A stretch of DNA of 64,000 bases, from the IMG/VR virus record IMGVR_UViG_3300025759_000072, positions 1 through 64,000 of that record; one strand, written 5' to 3'. The notes under the pieces were generated by a model. The model did not search any database and was not told the origin of the DNA. It saw only the letters and a list, made by a program, of their open reading frames with translations. The position numbers and the translations under genes were made by a program. Positions 1 through 48,060 of this stretch are shown here, piece by piece; the first letter of the stretch is position 1, and each line of letters opens with the position of its first letter. This DNA is from a virus.

Positions 1-802
1 CAGGATCATTACTGCTAAAGTATGCGTTATTTGCGACCAGTGATCCAGAAGCAGTAACAATAAACTCTTGCATCAATGAACCACCTTCTTCTGTCAATAG
101 TTTCGTATCATCTTCAAGTAGCATCTCATATGCAAGAATATCGGTTGTGTTATTATCTTCAATAACATCGATGTTTGCATTACCTGTATTAATCTGCTCG
201 TTGCTATATGTAAACAACTCACAACGAAGATCGTATGTTTGTAGTCTACCTGTTTGATAGAATACTTGTTCATGCTCAACAAACATAATCTCAAACAGTT
301 TATCAACCATTGGAAAGTATATTAGATCGCCTTCTTGTGGTCGATTTGCAGTGATAGAATATCCATCACCAGTACCTTCTTCAAGAACAATCGAGTCGCC
401 TTCATATGTTTGATCAAGAAACTGTCTTGATGGCGCGTTTGTATCAGCATCTTCTGTAACATAGTTATAACCAACTTCAGTTGTTAGTTTCTCAGAAGCA
501 GCCTGATTGAATCTTTTTCTTGCTACTGTAAAGGTAACTTGATCGTTGATCTGTAGATTGAACTTGGAAAGAAAATCGCCCTCGCCTTCAAACCCTTCAA
601 CATTTTTAATGTACATCTCAAGGTCAACAGCATCATCAAATTTACGAAGCGTATCTTCACCAAACAATGGATCTTCACGCACGAATACGCTCGGAATATA
701 CTTGACATTATATCCGTAAATCTTGATTGCTTCCAAACAAAGGTCTTCAACGAGGTCTTGTTCACGACCATAATTGAAGTTGTTGAAGTATGCGTTGAGC
801 AT
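1..802 (-). CDS. 14: Neck protein gp14, head closure (3' end outside window)
   Basis: T4 gp14-like neck/head-completion protein. It sits with gp13 at the head-tail junction and closes the filled head. The N terminus MLNAYFNNFNYGREQDL and the following region (YGYNVKYIPSVFVREDP) match the gp14 family as I know it. The frame stays open for about 267 codons and runs off the left edge, so it is nearly complete against the 256 residues of T4. The ATG (802-800) overlaps the stop of the upstream endonuclease gene as TAATG, so translation is probably coupled. A TATAAATA octamer lies at 875-882 inside that upstream gene. The order gp13-gp14 is as in T4. Confidence 0.9.
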   Translation of the reverse strand, partial: MLNAYFNNFNYGREQDLVEDLCLEAIKIYGYNVKYIPSVFVREDPLFGEDTLRKFDDAVDLEMYIKNVEGFEGEGDFLSKFNLQINDQVTFTVARKRFNQAASEKLTTEVGYNYVTEDADTNAPSRQFLDQTYEGDSIVLEEGTGDGYSITANRPQEGDLIYFPMVDKLFEIMFVEHEQVFYQTGRLQTYDLRCELFTYSNEQINTGNANIDVIEDNNTTDILAYEMLLEDDTKLLTEEGGSLMQEFIVTASGSLVANNAYFSSNDP

Positions 803-1527
803 TATAATACCTTATTTTTTCTATTTCTCTCGGCAAGATCAGGACGTTTTCGACCCTTATTCCCATGCTCTTTATATTTATAATTTTCCACATCATCAGT
901 ATATCGCCATTCTTTCCATTTGTATTTTTTATTATGAAGTCGATAACTTATAGTTCCAATTTTTATATTTAATTCTTCAGCCGCATCAGATTTTAATTCA
1001 TAATATTTTCCATTAATGAAAAACGGTCTATATGTTCCTCGTTTTTTTAATAAAACTATTCTTTCTTGTCGAGACATAACAACACCATATCTTGGATTGC
1101 CATTTCCTGAATATTGTTCAGACCTTTTCATTTTATCATCATTACACCACAATTTCCCAGTATTTGCGTCAGATATTTTTTTACTATGTTCGATTGATCT
1201 TGGAGGTAATGTGTATCCACCTTTATTCATAAAAGTTTTACCGCCATCATGACAATTAAAAAATCTATCATCATCAACCATACCACAACGACGAATTGCA
1301 GTATGTTCCCAAATTCTTGCTTTTTCTTTAGTTTGGAATGTTTTTCTTATTTGAATAATATCAGGTTCACCATATTCTTTTCGGAAATGGTCTACTCTTT
1401 TTGATGATGTGAAATATGAAACCCAAAAATCGTCTGGATGACAACCTTTACCATAGCGAACACCATAATAGTATTTCTGGTGTTTGGACCATCCAATAAG
1501 ATATGTATATGGGGTATAAATAGACAT
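802..1527 (-). CDS. Probable homing endonuclease (GIY-YIG-like, NUMOD-type C terminus) between gp13 and gp14
   Basis: 241 residues. The N terminus has Y9-L-I-G and Y19-Y-Y-G-V-R-Y, resembling the GIY...YIG core, followed by an R...GEP...WE pattern seen in phage-borne nucleases. A GNGNPRYG stretch near residue 140 resembles NUMOD3, and the C terminus looks like a NUMOD1-type helix-turn-helix that would bind DNA. It interrupts the gp13-gp14 pair that is contiguous in T4, as a free-standing homing gene does. AAGGAG lies 7 bases before the ATG. A hairpin and a late-promoter-like octamer precede the gene and resemble those of the HNH gene at 46593. Catalytic residues were inferred by eye only. Confidence 0.7.
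   Translation of the reverse strand: MSIYTPYTYLIGWSKHQKYYYGVRYGKGCHPDDFWVSYFTSSKRVDHFRKEYGEPDIIQIRKTFQTKEKARIWEHTAIRRCGMVDDDRFFNCHDGGKTFMNKGGYTLPPRSIEHSKKISDANTGKLWCNDDKMKRSEQYSGNGNPRYGVVMSRQERIVLLKKRGTYRPFFINGKYYELKSDAAEELNIKIGTISYRLHNKKYKWKEWRYTDDVENYKYKEHGNKGRKRPDLAERNRKNKVL
875..882 (-). promoter_or_regulatory. Late-promoter octamer TATAAATA inside the endonuclease gene
   Basis: Exact T4-like late promoter octamer on the minus strand, about 70 bases before the gp14 ATG. It would let gp14 be expressed independently of the inserted endonuclease gene. It also encodes Tyr-Lys-Tyr, so chance cannot be excluded. Confidence 0.4.
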
Positions 1528-1552
1528 GCTGATGCTCCTTGAAAGCGTTAGA

Positions 1553-1583
1553 GTGGTTGGGGACTGGTACTCCCGTGAACCAC
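1553..1583 (-). promoter_or_regulatory. Hairpin in the endonuclease 5' leader
   Basis: Minus-strand RNA folds as a 6-bp stem (GTGGTT/AACCAC), an asymmetric 3/1 internal loop, a 4-bp stem (GGGA/TCCC) and a 7-base loop. It is followed by TCTAA and then AAGGAG before the ATG at 1527. The layout is the same as at 46536-46565 in front of the second endonuclease gene. Confidence 0.6.
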
Positions 1584-1587
1584 ATTT

Positions 1588-1595
1588 TATCTATA
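1588..1595 (-). promoter_or_regulatory. Late-promoter-like octamer TATAGATA for the endonuclease gene
   Basis: One mismatch to TATAAATA, placed four bases before the leader hairpin. Transcription from it would start inside the hairpin and so would leave the stem incomplete. Confidence 0.35.
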
Positions 1596-1607
1596 AAAAT
1601 GGTACTT

Positions 1608-2351
1608 TTAACCTGTCATGTCATTGACGGGCAGACTGTAACTCACTATCATTTCTTCTTCGAGTTTTTGAATCTCTGCTTCAGCATCGTCATAAATCTT
1701 TGCACCATTGAACGTCAAACCACCAGGGAGTTGTACACCTTCAAATTTAGTAAGATTGCTTCCCCACTGACGTTTAATCAATGCTGTTGCATATCTTGCT
1801 AACCAACGATCACCCCATACATCAGAATATGTATTAGGATCTGTAATCGAATAACAGTCAACAACAATATACTCACCAACAAGAACATCAGTTCCCCATG
1901 ACATATCGATATGAAGTTTATTAACATGACGATTATAACGTAGTGGCTTCTTACCAACAAATAGTTCTTCTAAGAAAGAAACATGCTGCATTGCCATTAC
2001 GTATGTTACATATGAACTTGATGATAGATCAAATAGATCATTGAGATGAATCTGATATCGAACGCTAAAGAAGTTCGATGAGTTCATTGATTGACCAATA
2101 GGAACAACGGTATTCACACCAATAATATTCTGTGGTAATGTGATATATCCGTTATCAATATCGGTTTGTGTTACAACGTGTTTATACAGAATTCTTTCAC
2201 AACCATCGAAGTGATAATCCTGATAGTAGATGAGTGCTTCGTCAATACGGTCTTCTACCTGTTCATCATCGACGTTAATATCGATTACAGGATCGCCGAG
2301 TCTACGAAGGCAATATGCTTTGAACTCTGCACGAGTAGATGGGACTGCCAT
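1608..2351 (-). CDS. 13: Neck protein gp13
   Basis: T4 gp13-like neck protein (247 residues; T4 gp13 has 309). The N terminus MAVPSTRAEFKAYCLRRLG and the segment DDEQVEDRIDEALIYYQDYH are the usual family signature, and the middle contains the MQHVSFLEELF region. It forms the neck ring with gp14 after DNA packaging. GGAG lies 7 bases before the ATG and a late promoter octamer is at 2376-2383. It is the last large structural gene before the endonuclease and gp14. Confidence 0.92.
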   Translation of the reverse strand: MAVPSTRAEFKAYCLRRLGDPVIDINVDDEQVEDRIDEALIYYQDYHFDGCERILYKHVVTQTDIDNGYITLPQNIIGVNTVVPIGQSMNSSNFFSVRYQIHLNDLFDLSSSSYVTYVMAMQHVSFLEELFVGKKPLRYNRHVNKLHIDMSWGTDVLVGEYIVVDCYSITDPNTYSDVWGDRWLARYATALIKRQWGSNLTKFEGVQLPGGLTFNGAKIYDDAEAEIQKLEEEMIVSYSLPVNDMTG

Positions 2352-44339: not shown

Positions 44340-44612
44340 AACCCAAGAAAGATTAAGCCGCTAGGCGGTAATCCTCAATGTAATTATCGTTTGCTGCGAC
44401 AATTATAGTGTTTGACCTATTACGCGGTCAGCCGTGTTACTCCAATTCGCTATACACCATCAGTCGATCCTAGCACACCCCCAAAAGCACACCGAGATTC
44501 TTTATACCCAGCCTAGGAAAGGAACCTTTCGGTGCCCGATGTGCTTTTGGTGGAGGTGCGGGGATTTGCACCCCGGTCCTGTCTAGCTTTCGCTCCTCTT
44601 CAACGTAACATA
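44340..44612 (-). ncRNA. ssrA: Two-piece (circularly permuted) tmRNA
   Basis: Transfer-messenger RNA: rescues stalled ribosomes and tags the protein for degradation. In transcription order, the acceptor piece comes first (to 44548), with T arm CGGGG-TGCAAAT-CCCCG, then CACCTCC, A and an encoded CCA. The intervening loop (44483-44547) pairs with itself (AAAAGCACA/TGTGCTTTT). The coding piece then starts GGGGGTG at 44482. GGGGGTG pairs with CACCTCC over 7 bp with a G3-U70 wobble, the alanine identity pair. GGATCGAC follows in the D region, as in other tmRNAs. The tag frame (44353-44397) starts GCA GCA AAC GAT AAT. Outer ends are approximate; pseudoknots were not modelled. Confidence 0.9.
44353..44397 (-). 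other. tmRNA tag reading frame (AANDNYIEDYRLAA)
   Basis: 14 codons plus TAA. The AANDN beginning and LAA end match alphaproteobacterial tmRNA tags, whose C-terminal residues are read by ClpXP. The charged middle differs from host tags I know. Confidence 0.88.
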
Positions 44613-46501: not shown

Positions 46502-46525
46502 AACAAACTCCGAAATCTTGTTTAT

Positions 46526-46533
46526 TATAAATA
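46526..46533 (+). promoter_or_regulatory. Late promoter TATAAATA for the HNH gene
   Basis: Exact octamer, two bases before the leader hairpin, so late transcripts would start within the hairpin. Confidence 0.7.
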
Positions 46534-46535
46534 GT

Positions 46536-46565
46536 GTTAGTCGCGGAGAGGCAACTCCCACTAAC
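46536..46565 (+). promoter_or_regulatory. Hairpin in the HNH endonuclease 5' leader
   Basis: 6-bp stem GTTAGT/ACTAAC, 3/1 internal loop, 4-bp stem GGAG/CTCC, 6-base loop, then TCTAA and AAAGGAGG. The outer stem and loop layout equal those of the hairpin at 1553-1583, though bases differ. A GGAG lies inside the stem. Confidence 0.65.
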
Positions 46566-46592
46566 TCTAAACCTGTAAAGGAGGTCCAGCAT

Positions 46593-47120
46593 ATGACTAT
46601 ATATCACAATCACCACATCATTCCTAAACACATAGGTGGTACTGACGACCCATCAAATCTTGTTCGTTTGACTGTAGAAGAACATGCCGAAGCACATCAA
46701 AAACTCTATGAAGAACACGGTCGTTGGCAAGATTATTGCGCATGGAAATCACTCAGTGGTCAAATAACTGATTCTGAACGTAATATACTTCGTTCTAAGA
46801 ACAGAGATACCAGTTACATGCAATCCGAAGAGTATAGTAAGAAAGTATCGGAAGCATGTAAGGGAAGGTCTCCAACTAAAGGTTGTTTTCAAAAAGGACA
46901 CAAACGTTCCAAACAGTCTATTGAAAAACAGAAATCTAAAATAACTGGCAAAAAACGTGGACCTTACAAATACAATCATGAGAAATGTTCAAAAAAAGTT
47001 ACTGTTTATGGTAAAGAATACCCCAGTGTCGCCGCTGCTAAACGGGACACTGGGCACTCCTATTATACTATCATGCGGCTTCAGCCATCTCAATGGCAGT
47101 TTCAAGAGCCTTTGCTTTGA
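46593..47120 (+). CDS. HNH homing endonuclease with NUMOD motifs
   Basis: 175 residues. The HNH core is HNHHIIPKHIGGTDDPSNLV then RLTVEEHAEAHQKLYEEHG. It is followed by NUMOD3-like repeats (EACKGRSPTKGCF, KSKITGKKRGPYK) and a C-terminal NUMOD1-like DNA-binding segment (VYGKEYPSVAAAKRDTGHSY). AAAGGAGG precedes the ATG. It lies on the plus strand against its neighbours, and its 3' end overlaps the convergent DUF932 gene by 50 bases, the usual look of a mobile free-standing endonuclease. Confidence 0.88.
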   Translation: MTIYHNHHIIPKHIGGTDDPSNLVRLTVEEHAEAHQKLYEEHGRWQDYCAWKSLSGQITDSERNILRSKNRDTSYMQSEEYSKKVSEACKGRSPTKGCFQKGHKRSKQSIEKQKSKITGKKRGPYKYNHEKCSKKVTVYGKEYPSVAAAKRDTGHSYYTIMRLQPSQWQFQEPLL

Positions 47121-48018
47121 GTTTGGAGTTATAACCATACCAAGCAGAGGTTAGGCGAGTGTCGTCAGAACGACCCAGAGTGTGGTCGGTCATGTAGGTG
47201 ACGGTATTGAATGCCGCCCAAAAAGTACCAGCACCAAACTCTGCACCAGGCTGAGTGTGAAGAACTTCCATTGCCTCTTTAGAGTTACGAGAGACAGCAT
47301 TTTCCTTGCCCTTCGCATTGGAGGTAACAGGGAAGATACGATTGAAGTACTCAACGATGTTATCGTTAGTGAACCGCTTGGAACCAAGGAACTGAGCAGC
47401 CTCCTTGTAGGTATCCAACTTCTCCTTAGCAACACCGAGTTGTGCTTTCACCTCATCGGCGTCGAAGACACGACGGTGATTGACCTTCACAGCGTAGTTA
47501 GTCACACCCTGAAGAGCCATCGAAAGCGTATTCCAGCAAACGACACGAGTCGGCGTCATCTTCACGTCAATGGTCTGACCATACTTGTGAGGATTAGAGA
47601 ACAGAAGGTACTGTTCAACAACATCGTTCTTAAACACTTCGAAAGCATCATTGACCTTCGCAAGTGCCCATACACGGGAACCATCAGTCAACGCACCAGC
47701 GGTATGCATTTCCATATCGCCAGCAGCAACGAAGTCATTAAAGAAATCGAATGCTTCGGTATTCTGAAGCGGATTCCAGTCTTCGCCGATAACGTCAAAG
47801 AACTTGTCATCGGAAGAACGGTAGAGAGCTTTCTTGCCAGGAACGACGATTTGTTCGCCATCAGAACCAGTAACGGTCATGTCACGAACTTCGACTTCCC
47901 AGTCAAGACCAGCCTTTTCGAGCATCTGCTCTGGAGTCAGATCAGAACTGACCGGAACACCAAGACCGTGCCACGGAACTTCACCTGCGTATGCCATTGT
48001 TTCAACTGCTGCAACCAT
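47071..48018 (-). CDS. DUF932 / phage-plasmid-like protein (TIGR03299 type)
   Basis: 315 residues from MVAAVETMAYAGEVPWHGLG, the standard start of this family; also MTPTRVVCWNTLSMAL and FNTVTYMTDHTLGR. The family is common on phages and plasmids and its biochemical role is not established. AGGAG is 7 bases before the ATG, and a TTGACT-17-TATAGT promoter lies at 48061-48089. Its last 50 bases overlap the HNH gene on the other strand. Confidence 0.85.
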   Translation of the reverse strand: MVAAVETMAYAGEVPWHGLGVPVSSDLTPEQMLEKAGLDWEVEVRDMTVTGSDGEQIVVPGKKALYRSSDDKFFDVIGEDWNPLQNTEAFDFFNDFVAAGDMEMHTAGALTDGSRVWALAKVNDAFEVFKNDVVEQYLLFSNPHKYGQTIDVKMTPTRVVCWNTLSMALQGVTNYAVKVNHRRVFDADEVKAQLGVAKEKLDTYKEAAQFLGSKRFTNDNIVEYFNRIFPVTSNAKGKENAVSRNSKEAMEVLHTQPGAEFGAGTFWAAFNTVTYMTDHTLGRSDDTRLTSAWYGYNSKLKAKALETAIEMAEAA

Positions 48019-48060
48019 AATATATCTCCTGTTAGGTTGTTTCACTCAATCAATATAATA

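Follow-up and report, generated by a model that had tools for sequence, protein, structure and literature searches.

A structured element on the antisense strand, bounded by two facing late-promoter-like boxes, precedes phage homing endonuclease genes of different catalytic classes

Introduction

Antisense control of a mobile nuclease is already known from IS10, whose transposase is regulated by the 69-nt RNA-OUT (PMC5006887). For phage homing endonucleases, a single antisense RNA has also been described, namely CfrI of the T4-like cyanophage S-PM2, which is expressed, is approximately 225 nt long and covers the endonuclease gene together with the adjoining gene (PMC2984593). A different mode of control is known for I-TevI, I-TevII, I-TevIII, segB and mobE, where the ribosome site is masked by an RNA structure of the sense transcript itself (PMC2988022). 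In Aeromonas phage 25, the segD-like endonuclease gene seg43(25) has a stable hairpin that immediately precedes the ribosome site without hiding it (PMC2988022). The put RNA of HK022, which is about 70 nt in length and contains two stem-loops, serves polymerase antitermination (PMC9378689).

The leaders analyzed here resemble the IS10 arrangement at the sequence level, as a promoter-type box inside the coding start faces the gene's own promoter. The strand comparison and the predicted folds make the antisense strand the structured partner that covers the translation start. Shared with RNA-OUT are the predicted convergent promoters and a predicted antisense RNA, short and strongly structured, that would cover the region in which translation of a mobile-element nuclease begins. 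Unlike RNA-OUT, the element combines phage late-type promoters with two tandem hairpins, belongs to another gene family and is common to nucleases of different catalytic classes. CfrI serves as a precedent for an RNA antisense to a homing endonuclease gene in a T4-like phage. A search of the whole S-PM2 genome with our covariance model R1 gave a best score of 15.6 bits (E 3.5), which amounts to no recognizable relation to CfrI. As in the I-TevI, mobE and segB leaders, a late promoter and an RNA structure stand before a T4-like homing endonuclease, but here the pairing is conserved on the antisense strand. The seg43(25) hairpin is alike in position and the genome of phage 25 is without a model match. 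The put RNA is similar in length and in its two stem-loops and differs in its antitermination function. Neither Rfam 15 nor the open-access papers that were searched contained a conserved, portable family of antisense RNAs common to different nuclease classes.

Results and Discussion

Two endonuclease genes share one leader

The window, i.e. the whole stretch of DNA that was analyzed, comprises 64,000 nucleotides of the virus record IMGVR_UViG_3300025759_000072. A sequence-only reading of the window had claimed that two endonuclease genes of unrelated type, encoded on opposite strands, share one leader architecture. Both leaders were re-read in the sequence and contain the octamer, hairpin, TCTAA and ribosome site, and the ORFs that follow are of the GIY-YIG type (minus strand) and the HNH type (plus strand), which upholds this claim. 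On the gene strand, the order in both leaders is octamer, 6-bp stem, 3/1 internal loop (CAC or CGC opposite C), 4-bp stem, 7- or 6-nt loop, TCTAA, ribosome site and ATG. Three features were absent from the sequence-only reading, namely another hairpin around the Shine-Dalgarno sequence, a further box of the TATAAATA type that lies inverted within the first codons, and the strand of the conserved pairing. All features are listed in Table 1, in which R denotes the strand opposite to the endonuclease strand (S). The perfect box is the inverted one in gene 1 and the gene's own box in gene 2.

Table 1. Positions of the two leaders, their predicted elements and the endonuclease genes in the window
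Feature	Position	Strand	Basis
Complete antisense RNA element, gene 1	1513..1597	+ (= R strand)	Covariance model R1, 83.2 bits, E 1.6e-14
Late-promoter-like octamer TATAGATA of endonuclease gene 1	1588..1595	-	Sequence; predicted start near 1582, spacing from T4 late promoters (PMC2988020)
Inverted late-promoter-like octamer TATAAATA, codons 2-5 of gene 1	1515..1522	+	Sequence, box kept in all frames; predicted antisense start G1528
Antisense hairpin H2, gene 1	1529..1551	+	8 bp, CCUU in loop complementary to Shine-Dalgarno; fold of 1528-1583 and covariation
Antisense hairpin H1, gene 1	1553..1583	+	6 bp, G / GUG internal loop, 4 bp; 1 nt after H2; fold and covariation
Homing endonuclease gene 1, GIY-YIG type, I-TevI-like DNA-binding motif, 241 aa	802..1527	-	PHROG, Pfam
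Complete antisense RNA element, gene 2	46521..46607	- (= R strand)	Covariance model R1, 76.5 bits, E 3.7e-13
Late-promoter octamer TATAAATA of endonuclease gene 2	46526..46533	+	Sequence
Inverted box, variant ATATATA, codons 2-4 of gene 2	46598..46604	-	Sequence; 7 nt from GCUG
Antisense hairpin H2, gene 2	46567..46589	-	Fold
Antisense hairpin H1, gene 2	46536..46565	-	Fold
Homing endonuclease gene 2, HNH type, 175 aa	46593..47120	+	Pfam, tblastn

The product of gene 1 matched a PHROG homing endonuclease (3.2e-16) and the Pfam I-TevI_DNA-bd family (3.8e-5, under the curated cut-off). The gene 2 product matched Pfam HNH slightly under the cut-off (4.9e-4), and its tblastn matches are annotated phage homing endonucleases. 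Judged from the sequence, the nuclease class of both genes appears clear enough. The bare hairpin geometry was found at 58 sites in the window compared with 37-58 sites in shuffled sequences; as it is this frequent by chance, geometry alone is no proof. The core CRCGGRRN{5,9}YYCCC occurs exactly twice in the 89,418-base contig, once in each of the two leaders, and the covariance model matched the contig at these two leaders only (scores in Table 1).

The element is widespread and accompanies endonuclease genes

Approximately 268 distinct leaders were analyzed, which were taken from the IMG/VR matches listed for a pattern of box plus core and for promoterless and hairpinless patterns. The box-plus-core pattern was found in at least 120 stretches, and nearly all of the matches listed carry the complete unit of box, hairpin, (T)CTA, ribosome site, CAGC, ATG and TATTTAT. 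Among the matches listed for the promoterless or hairpinless patterns, the same unit of box, hairpin, ribosome site, CAGC, ATG and TATTTAT was returned, even though one of its parts had been omitted from the pattern. Promoterless-pattern matches mostly contain NATAAATA or (A/G)CTAAATA, and one or the other is found in nearly all leaders listed, so that the late-promoter box does belong to the leader, as had been proposed. The hairpinless-pattern matches have different inner stems with the pairing still intact.

An ORF for a GIY-YIG or HNH homing endonuclease is located 3' of nearly all of the approximately 268 leaders, and 249 of the 257 downstream ORFs of at least 70 aa fall in one similarity component. 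A scan of 113 downstream ORFs detected NUMOD3 in 48, HNH-type families in many, and GIY-YIG and SegE in up to 12; the comparison of these ORFs with PHROG assigned the homing endonucleases phrog_314 to 66 and phrog_655 to 42. Further copies near endonuclease genes had been expected from a covariance search, and many were found beside such genes. In 552 kb of T4-like DNA that was picked irrespective of the leader, three matches were obtained, each of them preceding an endonuclease; one of the three (L457) is a near copy of the window. A few elements are without an intact ORF, and some of these resemble decayed copies. At L049:7706-7790 and L257:8800-8886, the R structure is intact and no intact endonuclease lies behind it, as in decayed or deleted copies.

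The cultured T4-like phages that carry the element include Rhizobium phage RHph_I1_18 (49 bits), Variovorax phage V45v66 (56.4 bits) and Caulobacter phage Cr30 (39.9 bits), in which it is located ahead of an annotated homing endonuclease. A blastn search of isolates with one consensus leader yielded nothing convincing, while a pool of natural leaders led to Cr30 and V45v66. No significant model match was present in T4, Aeh1, Aeromonas phage 25, S-PM2 and ten other isolates, and both strands of both leaders were without a match in Rfam 15 at E<=5. A pattern scan of bacterial genome contigs returned mostly chance matches and just two MAG contigs that look real. These two contigs, labelled Bacteroidetes (L325) and Rhodobacteraceae (L385), are probably phage contigs that were binned into MAGs.

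The conserved pairing lies on the antisense strand

Covariation of the stems had been proposed from the two copies in the window and extends far beyond them: the covariation score is 0.464 compared with 0.164 for shuffled alignments (93 sequences), and drops to 0.05-0.08 when the pairing partners are slid. The outer cells of H1 are 99.5% paired. The MAFFT alignment misplaces the 3' box in about one third of the rows, and its helix 1 counts were therefore left out.

Conserved RNA helices tolerate G·U as a non-canonical pair, and a mismatch of A·C on S equals G·U on R. The two kinds of non-canonical cells were counted on the S strand in 135 representative leaders, defined as sharing less than 40% of their 6-mers. 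The overall ratio of A·C to G·T is 133:4; 95 leaders have more A·C than G·T and only 2 show the reverse. In separate counts for the individual parts, the S-strand ratios of A·C/C·A to G·T/T·G are 28:2 in the outer H1 stem, 53:0 in the R:Y pair and 137:3 in the H2 helix. If no bulge is allowed, the H2 ratio is lower at 94:26, a value in which out-of-register arms are counted. On R, H2 is extended by CUG/UAG, including a G·U pair in 93 of 93 sequences that would be C·A on the gene strand. Since the mismatches on S are A·C, with G·T all but absent, it is the fold of R that is under selection, and the conserved structure almost certainly sits on the antisense strand. The folding energies point in the same direction (-17.9 kcal/mol for R versus -13.1 kcal/mol for S, and a difference of -4.8 observed versus -2.9 shuffled), although the higher content of G and T in R is itself stabilizing, so that the lower energy of R is only partly evidence.

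These counts bear on the suggestion of the sequence-only reading that late transcripts start inside the hairpin, so that early read-through and late mRNA would fold differently as in I-TevI. As suggested, late transcripts would begin within the sense hairpin, in its 5' arm, yet the conserved fold is not this sense fold. The refolding of the sense mRNA is not supported, as the gene-strand cells are A·C and not G·U, and neither is control in the I-TevI manner, as the gene-strand hairpin does not sequester the ribosome site.

Two facing boxes enclose two tandem hairpins

The element reads on R as ATAAATA, 5 nt, G, H2, 1 nt, H1, A-Y-N and TATTTAT. H2 consists of 8 bp with a loop complementary to the Shine-Dalgarno sequence, and H1 of 6 bp, an internal loop of G opposite GYG, 4-5 bp and a loop of about 6 nt. 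Both copies in the window adopt the tandem H2-H1 fold on R when the minimal segments are folded. The conservation ends sharply outside the two boxes and nothing is conserved past the left box. The conserved region contains no clear terminator for an antisense RNA, which counts against such an RNA. As a separate observation, the H1 apical hexaloops of all leaders form reverse-complement sets (TTGGCG/CGCCAA, CGGCAA/TTGCCG, CTGCAA/TTGCAG and TGGCAG/CTGCCA).

The left box is of the TATAAATA type and corresponds in sequence to a T4-type late promoter, making it a predicted promoter. Its variants match those of late promoters of cyanophages and Aeh1 (PMC2984593, PMC2988020). The inverted box ATAAATA is located 5 nt from an invariant GCUG, within the first codons of the gene. 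In 198 leaders the corresponding TATTTA lies at +5 relative to the start codon; it is also found at +3, +4, +6, +7, +8 and +14, so that all frames are represented. In 13 leaders the start codon is located 5' of CAGC, and 12 of these keep the box 5-6 nt from CAGC. The spacing to CAGC is thus kept although the start codon moves, which indicates that it follows the R structure and not the start codon. A protein-level cause, the shared N-terminus M-x-I-Y, was rejected, since TATTTA is kept in three frames and when the start codon moves. The late box of T4 extends from -13 to -6 (PMC2988020); with the box ending at -6 and a 5-nt spacer, the predicted +1 position of the antisense transcript is the G of GCUG.

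Variants of the inverted box among 256 leaders include GTAAATA (22), ATAAGTA (14) and ATATATA (11), none of which is tolerated in the left box. Gene 2 of the window has such a weak variant, which counts against the promoter model. Within the window, the ATAAATA type of 7-mer is associated with promoter positions: 18 of 26 are found in forward orientation within 120 nt upstream of ORFs, 3 are upstream in reverse orientation and 2 are antisense inside ORFs. The flanks of the boxes neither pair nor covary and box variants occur on one side only; the boxes are therefore read as two separate motifs, i.e. convergent promoters, and not as one helix. A third helix between ATAAATA and TATTTAT, which would form a three-way junction or a hairpin in read-through RNA, is not supported, given the lack of covariation outside the 7-mers and the one-sided variants. 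From its sequence and spacing, we infer that the inverted box would be an active late promoter.

The leader is part of an inserted unit

Close relatives of the window (L466-L477) are without the gene 1 insertion, and the junctions were aligned by eye. In this empty-site comparison, one end of the insertion lies no more than a few bases from the left box, and the other follows the stop codon of the endonuclease. At window positions 800-1610, gene 1 lies between two adjacent structural genes, which are separated by approximately 7-8 nt in the same relatives. Both flanking genes are opposed to the endonuclease in 97 cases and co-oriented with it in 35, and the two groups do not differ in how well the structure and the two boxes are conserved. 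As the conservation is independent of the orientation of the host genes, the function belongs to the cassette. The leader is best explained as the promoter-and-control end of a mobile endonuclease cassette.

A candidate antisense regulator and alternative readings

The arrangement suggests two late promoters that would face each other at a distance of approximately 65 bp. The left box would drive the endonuclease mRNA, and the right box, located within codons 2-5, would drive an opposite-strand RNA that starts at the invariant GCUG directly ahead of the start codon. This antisense RNA is predicted to fold into two tandem hairpins with one nucleotide between them and would be the complement of the entire mRNA leader, Shine-Dalgarno sequence included, the anti-Shine-Dalgarno being presented in the loop of the first hairpin. 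Pairing with the mRNA would then most likely limit translation of the endonuclease, comparable to the action of RNA-OUT on the IS10 transposase. The ends of the transcript and its repressive effect are predictions. We see about an even chance that convergent late promoters and a stable cis-antisense RNA regulate the endonuclease in this way.

A 5' leader, insulator or processing signal of the host genes is a rather unlikely explanation. The inverted promoter would restore late transcription of the neighbors, and the hairpins would protect or separate their mRNA. With 97 opposed and 35 co-oriented insertions, R is in most cases the strand of the host mRNA; the distance from the box to the next host ORF has a median of 46 nt, and T4 endonucleases are known to bring promoters for their neighbors (PMC2988022). 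The structure and the inverted box are equally kept, however, in co-oriented insertions such as gene 1 of the window, in which no host gene follows on R. This independence from orientation does not favor a host-gene leader.

The structure could alternatively act as single-stranded DNA of R, as a signal for replication, recombination or homing. The position of the element at the end of the inserted unit would fit such a role, and G·T is tolerated in DNA hairpins, which counts in the same direction. Against it stand the promoter-like box at a fixed start-site spacing, the anti-Shine-Dalgarno in the loop and the lack of a known protein partner, and we regard this possibility as improbable. We give a similarly small chance to an antisense RNA that is a working partner of the cassette and not only a repressor, either by acting like put on the polymerase that enters the neighboring genome or by extending past the left box into flanking DNA and thereby linking the cassette to its insertion site. 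If this were true, one portable RNA module would serve nucleases of different catalytic classes.

An antiterminator of the HK022 put kind, in which binding of the nascent antisense RNA would render RNA polymerase resistant to termination, appears very improbable. Similar to put (features in PMC9378689), the element would yield about 60-70 nt with two stem-loops 1 nt apart and an internal loop in the second stem, directly after the predicted promoter; yet put requires contacts with the beta' zinc-binding domain, the likeness here is one of build, and the usefulness to a homing gene is not evident. Control of the I-TevI/mobE type would rest on a sense hairpin that occludes the ribosome site of early read-through RNA and on a late transcript without the 5' arm. 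This mechanism is known from several homing endonucleases (PMC2988022) and would fit the late-promoter box immediately upstream of the hairpin, but is highly improbable here in view of the pairing kept on the other strand, the position of H1 upstream of the ribosome site and the invariant A·C mismatch in a sense-strand H2.

An antisense regulator would have a plausible role, as free-standing homing endonucleases need to spare their phage, and an opposite-strand RNA would provide a portable switch for self-restraint that travels with the gene. The element defines an RNA family with a clear model that is absent from Rfam 15, and would extend the single known phage homing-endonuclease antisense RNA, CfrI, towards a widespread rule. 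Moreover, the asymmetry between G·U and A·C can reveal that a structure conserved in a 5' UTR belongs to the opposite strand.

Genomic surroundings of the second leader

Upstream of gene 2, a permuted tmRNA gene was identified at window positions 44353-44610 (minus strand; Rfam RF04321, 89.8 bits), which was missed by ARAGORN. A DUF932 gene at window positions 47071-48045 (minus strand) is related to a gene of Methylophilales phage Melnitz and phage C48C1 (64-67% DNA identity). This likeness suggests that the source of the sequence is a T4-like phage near the Kyanoviridae.
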